A stretch of 55,223 bases of DNA from a virus. Positions 26,639 to 42,851 of the stretch are shown in pieces (the first letter of the stretch is position 1; the number at the start of each line of letters is the position of its first letter). The notes under the pieces are model-generated. The model worked only from the letters and a program-made list of their open reading frames with translations, was not told the DNA's origin and did not search any database. The position numbers and the translations under genes are program-made. The stretch spans positions 1-55,223 of the IMG/VR virus record IMGVR_UViG_3300025282_000042. The stretch is one strand, 5' to 3'.

Positions 26639-26691
26639 CTATTTAGCTCTCCATAGAACGAACTCTACGAGTTCTATGGAGAGCTAAATAG
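26639..26691 (+). repeat. Family A bulged hairpin, copy A1
   Basis: Perfect 17-bp outer stem (CTATTTAGCTCTCCATA / TATGGAGAGCTAAATAG), 4-nt bulge GAAC on the 5' side, inner stem GAACTC/GAGTTC and loop TAC. No T-run follows, so it is not an intrinsic terminator. Five further copies lie downstream in the plus arm. Confidence 0.92.
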
Positions 26692-27141: not shown

Positions 27142-27194
27142 CTATTTATTCCCTCTAGAATGAACTCTAGTGAGTTCTAGAGGGAATTAAATAG
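27142..27194 (+). repeat. Family A bulged hairpin, copy A2
   Basis: Outer stem CTATTTATTCCCTCTA / TAGAGGGAATTAAATAG with one extra base on the right, bulge GAAT, inner stem GAACTC/GAGTTC, loop TAGT. Compared with copy A3 the outer stem differs at three base pairs, each changed on both arms so that pairing is kept. Confidence 0.93.
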
Positions 27195-27232
27195 AATTTG
27201 GATTTTTAACCGCCAACTTGGAGGATATTCCT

Positions 27233-27400: not shown

Positions 27401-27462
27401 CAAAGACTTTTGAAGATGAGGGAGCGTCTTTTGGGACGTTCCCAATTCTTGAACAGTCTTTG
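27401..27462 (+). repeat. Family B composite hairpin, copy B1
   Basis: Outer arms CAAAGACT/AGTCTTTG enclose an imperfect AAGA/TCTT step and an inner stem GGGAGCGTC/GACGTTCCC (one G-T pair). It begins immediately after the stop of the 55-aa gene. Copies B2 and B3 share layout and most sequence but differ by paired changes in the inner stem. Confidence 0.85.
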
Positions 27463-27471
27463 ATTTTGTAA

Positions 27472-27524
27472 CTATTTACTCTCTATAGAATGAACTCTAG
27501 TGAGTTCTATAGAGAGTTAAATAG
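27472..27524 (+). repeat. Family A bulged hairpin, copy A3
   Basis: Outer stem CTATTTACTCTCTATA / TATAGAGAGTTAAATAG, bulge GAAT, inner GAACTC/GAGTTC, loop TAGT. Flanks are duplicated from A2: CTTTGAxTTTGTA before and AATAGAATTTGG after. Confidence 0.93.
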
Positions 27525-27529
27525 AATTT

Positions 27530-27651
27530 GGTGTTCTTTGTGGAAGATGTGTGATGTGTAGTGCAGTATTTCTTGCCAAAGCATCACTAAGACCAAGTTT
27601 GTCAGCTTGAGCCTTTCCTTTGACAAGAAGGGTCTTCCACAAAGCACACCA
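27530..27651 (+). other. Structured insert with 18-bp inverted ends (branched RNA or mini-element)
   Basis: Arms 27530-27547 and 27633-27650 pair in 17 of 18 positions (GGTGTTCTTTGTGG... with ...CCACAAAGCACACC). Inside, TAGTG/CACTA and TTGTCA/TGACAA can form two further stems, giving a three-way junction. The same flanks occur fused after hairpin A2 (AATTTGG next to ATTTTTAACC at about 27194-27210), so 27532-27650 behaves like an insert with a matching empty site. No convincing open frame with a ribosome site lies inside. Confidence 0.75.
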
Positions 27652-27678
27652 TTTTTAACCATAGCAAAGGAGATGGGT

Positions 27679-27849
27679 ATGTCTAGTCGCGTTAAGATTG
27701 AACTTACTTTTGAAGCTGATCTTGATATGGTTCCGGGTTGGGGTCATGAGCCAGAGGATTGGGTAAACTACGTTACACAAAATCTAATGTCGTCAACTTA
27801 TAATTCTTGTGTTACTGTTCACAAAGTTGAAAAGGAAAGAAAAATATAG
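27679..27849 (+). CDS. 56-aa early protein, unknown
   Basis: MSSRVKIELTFEADLDMVPG onward. AAAGGAGA lies 6 nt before the ATG at 27679. The ATG two codons earlier is too close, and an in-frame TTG at 27607 lies inside the structured insert. The product looks like a small alpha/beta protein (EDWVNYVTQNLMSS helix). The segment ATAGCAAAGGAGATGGGTATG at its start recurs at the next gene. Function unknown. Confidence 0.65.
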   Translation: MSSRVKIELTFEADLDMVPGWGHEPEDWVNYVTQNLMSSTYNSCVTVHKVEKERKI

Positions 27850-27859
27850 ACCTTTTGTA

Positions 27860-27919
27860 AAAGACTTTTGAAGGTGAGGGAATGTCCTATAGGATGTTCC
27901 CTATCCTTGAGTAGTCTTT
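27860..27919 (+). repeat. Family B composite hairpin, copy B2
   Basis: AAAGACT/AGTCTTT outer arms, AAGG/CCTT step, inner stem GGGAATGTCC-TATA-GGATGTTCCC (10 pairs, two of them wobble). It is part of a direct repeat of about 75 nt shared with B3 that also includes the preceding ATAGACCTTTTGTAA. Confidence 0.87.
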
Positions 27920-27941
27920 AACCATAGCAAAGGAGATGGGT

Positions 27942-28058
27942 ATGAATTTAAGACGTGAAAACGATGTGAAAAAATCAAATATTAGGCATTTAATTAACTG
28001 CCTAACCTTGATTACCATTACACTGATTGTTTGCATGACAGTTATAGACCTTTTGTAA
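27942..28058 (+). CDS. 38-aa single-pass membrane peptide
   Basis: Read by eye. The ATG at 27942 is preceded by AAAGGAGATGGGT, the same leader as the preceding gene. The product has a basic start (MNLRREND) and one hydrophobic helix (LINCLTLITITLIVCMTV). Its last codons lie in the repeated ATAGACCTTTTGTAA. Too short for ordinary gene finders. The repeated leader supports real expression. Possibly an inner-membrane effector. Confidence 0.55.
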   Translation: MNLRRENDVKKSNIRHLINCLTLITITLIVCMTVIDLL

Positions 28059-28118
28059 AAGACTTTTGAAGGTGAGGGAGCATCCTTTAGGATGTTCCCT
28101 ATCCTTGAACAGTCTTTG
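28058..28118 (+). repeat. Family B composite hairpin, copy B3
   Basis: AAAGACT/AGTCTTT outer arms, AAGG/CCTT step and inner GGGAGCATCC-TTTA-GGATGTTCCC. Relative to B2 the inner stem changes T-G to C-G and G-T to A-T, keeping pairing. Followed by CCATAGCAAAGGAAGG, a variant of the shared leader. Confidence 0.87.
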
Positions 28119-28145
28119 ACCATAGCAAAGGAAGGAAAGTAAATT

Positions 28146-30213: not shown

Positions 30214-30265
30214 CTATATAGACCCTATAGAGTGAGTTCTACGAACTCTATAGGGTTCTATATAG
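30214..30265 (+). repeat. Family A bulged hairpin, copy A4
   Basis: Outer stem CTATATAGACCCTATA / TATAGGGTTCTATATAG (one extra base at right), bulge GAGT, inner stem GAGTTC/GAACTC and loop TAC. The inner stem is inverted relative to A1-A3 but pairing is retained. It lies 5 bp upstream of a strong promoter. Confidence 0.92.
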
Positions 30266-34442: not shown

Positions 34443-34644
34443 ATGGATGGTGCGTCTAAAGAATAAAAATCAAACAGCAAGTTGGAGATTTAATTCAAAA
34501 AGAAAAGCAGAAGACTTTTTAAATGATAGAAGAAAACTTGTGCAACACTTAGGATATGACCCCGATCAGGTGTACTTATTAGTTCCTGTAGAGAGAGTTC
34601 TTACGAACTCTACAGGGACTAATAAAAATAGGAGAGGAGTATGA
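34435..34644 (+). CDS. 69-aa protein whose end encodes hairpin A5
   Basis: ATG 34435 (GGGAG 7 nt upstream) is preferred over an in-frame ATG at 34414. MDRWMVRLKNKNQTASWRFN onward, a small basic alpha/beta protein (RRKLVQHLGYDPDQVYLL). Its last 23 codons include the family A hairpin A5 (34576-34625). The reading frame passes through the hairpin, and the stop overlaps the helicase-primase start (34641). Confidence 0.6.
   Translation: MDRWMVRLKNKNQTASWRFNSKRKAEDFLNDRRKLVQHLGYDPDQVYLLVPVERVLTNSTGTNKNRRGV
34576..34625 (+). repeat. Family A bulged hairpin, copy A5 (inside coding sequence)
   Basis: Outer stem TTATTAGTTCCTGTA / TACAGGGACTAATAA with one T-G pair, bulge GAGA, inner GAGTTC/GAACTC, loop TTAC. 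It ends 15 nt before the start codon of the helicase-primase, with the ribosome site (GGAGAGGAG) directly after it. Confidence 0.9.
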
Positions 34645-41182: not shown

Positions 41183-42851
41183 ATCCAATAAAAATCCACA
41201 GTTCCGATCCAAATTTTCAGAAGATATATTTAATACAAAGTACTATCATGCAGGTGCTGAGACTATGTATGAACTGGCAGCAACTCTGGTTGAGGATGTG
41301 TGTCAGGACAAGATGACTACCTCAGAAAAGACAGAGCTTACAAATCATATAGCAGAATTAAGATTTATTCCGGGGGGTAGGTATTTATATTACGCAGGAA
41401 GAGAGAAGAAGTTTTTTAATAATTGTTATCTCTTAAAATGTGAGGAAGACACCAGAGAAGATTGGGCTAATCTTTCTTGGAAGGCTGAATCCTGTCTGAT
41501 GACAGGTGGTGGAATAGGTTCTGACTACTCAGTGTACAGAGCAGAAGGTAAAGGACTTGGAGGAACAGGTGGTATTGCTTCTGGACCTATTCCTAAAATA
41601 CAAATGATAAATGAAATTGGTAGAAGAGTTATGCAGGGAGGTAGTAGAAGGTCTGCAATTTATGCAAGCCTGAATTGGAAGCATGAGGATATATATAAAT
41701 TTCTTTCTTCTAAAAACTGGAAGGATATGCCGATAGGGAATACAGGACAGACTTTGTTTGATGTTAAACAAGATGACTTTAATTTTCCTGCCCCCTTAGA
41801 CATGACAAATGTAAGTGTTAATTATGACACAGAATGGTTATTAAACTTTTGGAAAACAGGAGAGGTAGGAGATGTCTTTAGGACAAATATACGTCAGGCT
41901 TTGTCAACAGCAGAACCGGGCTTTAGTTTCAATTTCTTCGACAAGGAAAAAGAAACGCTACGAAATGCTTGTACAGAAGTTACGTCAGAAGATGATTCAG
42001 ATGTGTGCAATTTGGGAAGTCTTAATTTTGCTAGGATTGATGATCTTAATCAGCTTAGAGACGTGGTAGAATTAGCTACAAAGTTTCTTCTTTGCGGTAC
42101 ACTCAGAGCACAACTACCATATGATAAAGTTTATGAAGTAAGAGAAAAGAATAGAAGGCTTGGTCTAGGATTGATGGGTCTGCATGAGTGGTTGATACAA
42201 AGAAATAGCAAGTATGAAACTACAGAAGAGATGCACCGTTGGTTGAAAGTTTATGAGGCAGAGTCTGATAGGATTTCTGATTCCTTTGCAGATGAATTAG
42301 GAATTTCCAGACCTGTAGCTAAACGTGCAGTAGCACCTACAGGAACAATAGGTATTATTGCTGGTACATCTACTGGGGTTGAACCTATCTTTGCTGTCTC
42401 TTATAAAAGAAGATACCTGAAAAATAGAAGGTGGCATTACCAGTATGTTGTAGATAGTGCGGCTCAAGAAATGATTGACTTGTATGGAACAGACCCCAAC
42501 AAAATAGAATCAGCAATGGACTTGGCTACAGATTATGAAAGAAGATTATCTTTCCAAGCTAACATACAGGAATATGTGGACATGAGTATTTCAAGTACAA
42601 TCAATCTCCCACCGTGGGATACTAAAGAAAATAATGAAGATTTAGTAGAGCCTTTTGCTCAGACACTAGCTAGGTATGCTCATAGACTTAGAGGATTTAC
42701 CTGTTTTCCTGATGGAAGCAGAGGCGGACAGCCTCTAACCGTTGTGTCTTATAAAGAGGCAGTAGATAAACTTGGTGAAGAATTTGAAGATAACATACAG
42801 GCTCATGATATTTGTGAGATCACTGGTTCAGGTGGGGTATGTGGAGTTTAG
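41175..42851 (+). CDS. Ribonucleotide reductase, probably class II (B12-dependent)
   Basis: 558 aa from ATG 41175. FIPGGRYLYYAGR, FFNNCYLLKCEED, the LMTGGGIGSDYSVYR loop, catalytic RNACTEV (about 263-269), APTGTIGIIAGTSTGVEPIF and C-terminal CEITGSGGVCGV match NrdJ-like reductases with active Cys-Asn-Glu residues and C-terminal redox Cys. No small subunit gene is nearby, which supports class II. It makes dNTPs for replication. Its stop codon shares one base with the tRNA gene. Confidence 0.85.
   Translation: MFKSNKNPQFRSKFSEDIFNTKYYHAGAETMYELAATLVEDVCQDKMTTSEKTELTNHIAELRFIPGGRYLYYAGREKKFFNNCYLLKCEEDTREDWANLSWKAESCLMTGGGIGSDYSVYRAEGKGLGGTGGIASGPIPKIQMINEIGRRVMQGGSRRSAIYASLNWKHEDIYKFLSSKNWKDMPIGNTGQTLFDVKQDDFNFPAPLDMTNVSVNYDTEWLLNFWKTGEVGDVFRTNIRQALSTAEPGFSFNFFDKEKETLRNACTEVTSEDDSDVCNLGSLNFARIDDLNQLRDVVELATKFLLCGTLRAQLPYDKVYEVREKNRRLGLGLMGLHEWLIQRNSKYETTEEMHRWLKVYEAESDRISDSFADELGISRPVAKRAVAPTGTIGIIAGTSTGVEPIFAVSYKRRYLKNRRWHYQYVVDSAAQEMIDLYGTDPNKIESAMDLATDYERRLSFQANIQEYVDMSISSTINLPPWDTKENNEDLVEPFAQTLARYAHRLRGFTCFPDGSRGGQPLTVVSYKEAVDKLGEEFEDNIQAHDICEITGSGGVCGV

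Follow-up and report, generated by a model that had tools for sequence, protein, structure and literature searches.

A block of 119 nt inserted in the leader of a small early gene of an uncultured marine phage very probably forms a conserved structured RNA. We have analyzed a virus record from IMG/VR with 55,223 nt (hereafter the window) and identified six distinct copies of the element in five phages (the window, L027, L037, L088 with two copies, and L089). From these sequences we conclude that it is a putative new structured RNA module of early-gene leaders. What was a visual oddity becomes in this way an RNA family of uncultured marine phages supported by covariation, with a defined fold, strand and site, and absent from Rfam.

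The − strand of the window carries the terminase, the portal and other virion genes, and the genes for replication, the endolysin and the ribonucleotide reductase, together with the small early genes, are mainly on the + strand. Its terminase has at most ~40% identity to those of named phages (HTVC027P being the closest), and the ribonucleotide reductase is 72-73% identical to those of the Roseobacter phages CRP-212 and CRP-3. The first-pass annotation had described a precise insert with inverted ends, placed between two flanks that are directly joined in a nearby leader, and we could confirm both the coordinates and the pairing. The 119 nt (27532-27650) lie between AATAGAATTTGG (27520-27531) and ATTTTTAACC (27651-27660), and the junction free of element in the paralogous leader A2 is found 330 nt upstream of the insert site (Table 1). 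The leaders A2 and A3 have 85% identity across the 87 nt preceding the junction, and the RNA element begins 5 nt past the leader hairpin of A3. The ends GGTGTTCTTTGTGGAAGA and TCTTCCACAAAGCACACC pair at 17 of 18 positions. Paired ends of such size at a spacing of 50-150 nt are unique in the 55 kb, the runner-up having 13 bp.

On its right side, the "empty site" was weaker than first claimed. Several leaders share the sequence TTTAACC, and the 28 nt starting at 27654, in which the next small gene has its ribosome-binding site and its start (27679), are identical to another leader type; therefore, A3 may be a recombinant leader rather than the product of a simple insertion into an A2-like leader. 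Near-identical contigs stop close by (L004/L005 at 26683 and L086 exactly at 27654), so that the exact junction in the window rests on one assembly. The element itself is no assembly artefact, as its conserved homologues show. Nested-palindrome hairpins recur in leaders along the window (26639-26691, 27142-27194, 27472-27524, 30222-30256 and 34576-34625), with tips of the type GAGTTC..GAACTC; they are common to several relatives and entirely missing from many. A second leader type (AAAGACTTTTGAAGGTGAGGGA...AGTCTTT), found at 27402-27465, 27859-27922 and 28057-28120, is an imperfect palindrome repeated ahead of small genes and shuffled among relatives.

Table 1. Coordinates of the RNA element, its parts and the surrounding leader features (window positions unless a locus is named).
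Feature	Position	Strand	Remarks
Paralogous leader A2 without element	27190..27211	+	AATAGAATTTGG abuts ATTTTTAACC at 27201/27202
Leader hairpin A3, nested palindrome	27472..27524	+	A2 copy at 27142-27194
Structured RNA element, P1 to P1	27530..27650	+	strictly inserted portion 27532-27650
P1 5' arm GGTGTTCTTTGTGGAAGA	27530..27547	+	6/18 P1 pairs changed on both sides (6 members)
P2 (GTGATGT...GCATCAC in the window)	27551..27587	+	predicted from fold; sequence and length vary among members
P3 CAAGU[UUGUCA]GCUUG	27594..27609	+	3/5 pairs changed on both sides
P4 CCUUUC[CUUUGACAA]GAAGGG	27612..27632	+	4/7 pairs changed on both sides
P1 3' arm TCTTCCACAAAGCACACC	27633..27650	+	pairs with 5' arm; 18-bp closing stem
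28-nt repeat TTTAACCATAGCAAAGGAGATGGGTATG	27654..27681	+	exact copy at 27917-27944, other leader type
Element B	L012 5616-5487, L013 492-366, L064 4544-4402	−	paired ends

The + strand RNA of the insert folds with −49.8 kcal/mol (z = −6.2), and none of 200 shuffled sequences was as stable. Two interior stems and a three-way junction had been proposed for it. Actually, there are three arms, a variable P2 and the conserved P3 and P4, and given that P3 and P4 are only two nt apart and P4 lies directly against P1, the predicted fold is a four-way junction closed by P1. In relatives P3 reads UUGGU[UUGUCA]GCCAA, and its loop is UUGUCA in five of the six members (AUGUCA in L088a). The P4 loop contains UGACAA (27621-27626), exactly complementary to the P3 loop UUGUCA (27599-27604). 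This complementarity is held in 5/6 members, with the outermost pair lost in L037, and in the diverged copy L088a the pairing of AUGUCA with UGAUGU needs two wobbles. Compared with a nested alternative, in which UUGUCA is paired with UGACAA, P3 and P4 folded as separate hairpins gain 3-7 kcal/mol in stability. The length of the element goes from 97 to 169 nt among members, and varies through P2 and, in L088a, P4. Neither a gradual length variation of the leaders nor a loss of conserved pairing, the two patterns that would speak against a discrete module, was found; the variation in length is within the element and mostly in P2.

The insert gave no match in similarity searches against 50,697 phages and 72,556 plasmids, nor an exact 30-mer of it in IMG/VR. 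We collected 80 relatives via the terminase gene and scanned them for inverted ends 50-150 nt apart. Similar arms (CTTnGTGGAGGA) were found in L027 and L036/L037, immediately behind a leader hairpin, on the upstream side of the terminase. The core common to these loci and the window (UUUGUCAGC, 10-26 nt, UUGACAnG, a few nt and GGUC) was searched as a pattern and added L088, with a second and more diverged copy, and L089. L036, L037 and L090 are essentially one phage (99.9% identical, L037 and L090 coming from a single contig). The homology of the copies is established; a leave-one-out covariance model, trained on the five remaining copies with the window excluded, matched the window at 27529-27651 with 49.7 bits (E=5.7e-10). 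Thus the search for the insert and its structure in related phages, recommended in the first-pass annotation, was successful in L027, L037, L088 and L089.

The covariance model detected no further copy, either in the related loci (803 kb) or in 36 records scanned in full, which included the six named phages HTVC027P, HTVC023P, 023Pt_psg01, CRP-3, CRP-212 and CRP-901. When 84,980 bacterial and archaeal genomes were scanned for patterns, nothing survived the covariance model, by which 12 bacterial genome matches and the arm-pattern matches L112-L121 were rejected. Sixteen core-pattern loci (L092-L107) lacked the arms and were discarded as chance matches. In Rfam 15 no curated family reached its gathering score, and the published descriptions of some HTVC-type phages do not mention non-coding RNAs. 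As far as searched, the element would occur only in this uncultured phage group. ARAGORN and Rfam found no tRNA or tmRNA at the element in the window, where the sole tRNA is a tRNA-Arg at 42851, nor in L027, L036 and L037. Two arm-pattern loci, L084 (1108-1216) and L085 (307-415), are not the element; they correspond to a tRNA-Met (CAT) within a perfect 20-bp extended acceptor stem, located near a tRNA-Leu and a predicted tRNA-Pyl.

The conservation of the pairing is established as well, with covariation that comes from a small set of six copies, all of one phage group. The arms of P1 read GGAAGA/UCUUCC, GGAGGA/UCCUCC, GGUGGA/UCCACC or GGUGAA/UUCACC across members, so the sequence changed and the pairing was kept; 99% of the P1 cells are paired. 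For P1 and P3 together, 97% of the cells in the six-copy alignment are paired and 9 of 23 pairs have two-sided changes, a number reached by none of 500 shuffles and compared with at most 1 in slid controls. For P3 and P4 there were 7 of 18 such pairs, not reached by any shuffle, with the reservation that the P4 register was set with one N in the rows of L027 and L037 and one N on each P4 side in the window row, a placement that tilts the P4 count in favor of structure. The loop-loop cells of P3 and P4 are 97% paired but near-invariant, and so covariation gives no support to this particular pairing. The proposal of a structured RNA module in a duplicated leader has in this way held up, with homologues that carry compensatory changes at corresponding sites elsewhere.

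Pairing could also be selected at the level of DNA, as a cruciform or recombination hotspot. The covariation of P1 alone would fit DNA pairing, the neighboring leaders are also palindromes and the local gene order is shuffled. What makes this reading improbable is the strand preference, which is established: under the same leave-one-out model the − strand of the window copy scored 26.7 bits, 23 bits below the + strand, and the G-U pairs present in P3 and P4 are tolerated on the + strand only. The sense strand of the element is the + strand. The − strand of the insert is open in two frames, yet it had no match in the window, the loci, the phages or the plasmids. Besides, the members differ in length by numbers that are not multiples of three, and there is no common reading frame. 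An antisense gene was rejected on both counts.

In every member the RNA follows a leader hairpin at a distance of 5-70 nt and lies ~0.6-1.9 kb upstream of the terminase, oriented with the small early genes and always between the hairpin and the ribosome-binding site in the direction of the gene. The next gene downstream is different in each member. Within one and the same gene array of L088 and L089, the RNA of L088 precedes a gene whose L089 homologue sits before the L089 RNA, and the RNA of L089 precedes a gene that is found further along in L088, there without the RNA. The element is therefore not the regulator of one particular gene. Its leader position and the AUUUUU at the end of the window copy had suggested an attenuator, and a riboswitch for the downstream gene would fit the position equally. 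Both are contradicted by the other members, which have no U-run (GCUCAUUUC, GCCCAUUUC and GCUCAUUC), by a P1 of 16-18 bp, too stable to switch easily, and by the unrelated downstream genes. A terminator scan gave no + strand site, and we give this kind of regulation only a small probability. A trans-acting or self-associating role is more likely than regulation of the adjacent gene.

The distribution is patchy. The terminase tree places the window in a clade apart from L027, L037, L088 and L089, and L007 and L008, with terminases 99.4% identical to that of the window, are free of the element over the available upstream sequence (5.0 and 2.9 kb), which indicates horizontal gain or repeated loss. 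Such an isolated copy, with inverted ends and a precise boundary when compared to A2, could be expected if a miniature transposable element, bounded by terminal inverted repeats, had entered a leader like A2, another suggestion of the first-pass annotation. We regard it as highly improbable. The arms co-vary and their sequence differs between members, and the comparison of the joined flanks of A2 with the interrupted ones of A3 leaves no duplicated bases that could represent a target duplication. The window has one copy and the relatives two at most (L088), each next to a hairpin leader on the upstream side of the terminase, and the bacterial and archaeal genomes gave no pattern-level match. 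What remains, from the sequence comparisons, is a structured RNA module that would have a function of its own and be exchanged between hairpin leaders by recombination; its presence does change from leader to leader and from phage to phage. In L088 a small hairpin, TGAGCCACATTGAATGTGGTTCA, with ends resembling P1, is found shortly before the RNA (~7450-7410, − strand), perhaps a remnant of another copy.

Regarding function, we see about an even chance that the RNA is trimmed from an early transcript and acts in trans, probably associating with itself via the loops of P3 and P4. The block would be transcribed in the + direction within the transcript of the small early genes. Against this reading, no promoter above chance was found near it. 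The 18-bp helix of P1 would clamp the four-way junction with its variable arm P2 and the conserved hairpins P3 and P4, the loops of which are complementary over six bases. The RNA would then be cut out, with the leader hairpin and P1 serving as nuclease sites or ends, and the excised product would last as a stable RNA of ~100-170 nt. Contact between molecules is favored since, by a rough estimate, the linker of 2 nt between P3 and P4 strains a six-base internal kiss. Such an RNA would be a self-contained module that moves with the hairpin leaders and is not owned by the gene that follows. Whether lytic marine phages have exchangeable structural RNAs, and for what purpose, becomes a testable question.

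The nearest functional analogy is the packaging RNA of phi29. The phi29-type pRNA (RF00044) has about 120 nt, a long closing helix and a multi-way junction, and its fold is kept. The element is alike in its size of ~120 nt, long closing helix, multi-way junction and two mutually complementary loops, and also in retaining the fold while the primary sequence varies. In phi29-type pRNAs the complementary loops are found within one sequence, and the sequence is variable (PMC12670572). Most of the features compared to decide on membership were different, however. The junction is four-way here and three-way in pRNA, and the loop match has 6 nt and is near-invariant here, versus 3-4 nt that co-vary in pRNA. 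The RF00044 model had no match to the element up to E=10. The window phage, unlike phi29, has a conventional terminase large subunit (phrog_38), an A-family DNA polymerase and a DnaB-type primase/helicase, and neither a phi29-type packaging ATPase nor protein-primed replication was found in the window. A self-assembling structural RNA with complementary loops similar to those of pRNA, in a tailed phage with conventional terminase and with its gene shortly before that of the terminase, could for example act on the packaging complex or serve as a defence decoy; it has very little probability in our opinion.

The multimeric RNAs of bacteria and phages such as GOLLD, ROOL and OLE are several hundred nucleotides long. 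The element is far shorter, and no sequence or Rfam relation to them was found. They are non-coding and highly structured and form complexes with their own copies (PMC12286853); the element shares the first two properties, and in its case the self-complexes are only inferred.

A different block, element B, was found in a sister clade, also downstream of leader hairpins (Table 1). It has 130 nt, paired ends of 26 bp, a variable internal arm and a possible pseudoknot of GGUCA with UGACC. It is not recognisable as a divergent copy of the window element (A), and the models R1 and R2 gave no match. Sites of the same kind thus receive, besides A, at least one unrelated element with paired ends, and the hairpin leaders give the impression of docking places where structured RNA modules are taken up. 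We examined the relatives in which 1.9 kb or more is available upstream of the terminase, counting L036, L037 and L090 once; A or B was present in 7 of the 14 that have long hairpins and in 0 of the 19 that lack them, a tally not corrected for kinship. This restriction, together with the constant placement between leader hairpin and ribosome-binding site, fits the main rival of the trans-acting RNA: a cis element of the early mRNA that, jointly with the leader hairpin, protects processed 5' ends, insulates cistrons or spaces the ribosome-binding site, whatever the gene. In early transcripts of the T7 type, intercistronic hairpins are processed by RNase III. The window has likewise hairpins between the small early genes of a presumed polycistronic transcript, but the element next to such a hairpin is a junction RNA, its loops conserved and one of its arms variable, and its processing is only proposed here. 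Most hairpin leaders function without the RNA element, and its conserved loops and unpaired bases exceed the needs of a generic protector, so that we consider the cis role unlikely, though a serious candidate. Other blocks with paired ends were seen in the relatives. L064 has a third element of 160 nt (6751-6592, − strand) between two leader hairpins, which matches B in the first ~18 nt only, and L041 has a block of ~150 nt (618-468, − strand) with arms of 24 nt and internal mismatches, located just upstream of a start codon.
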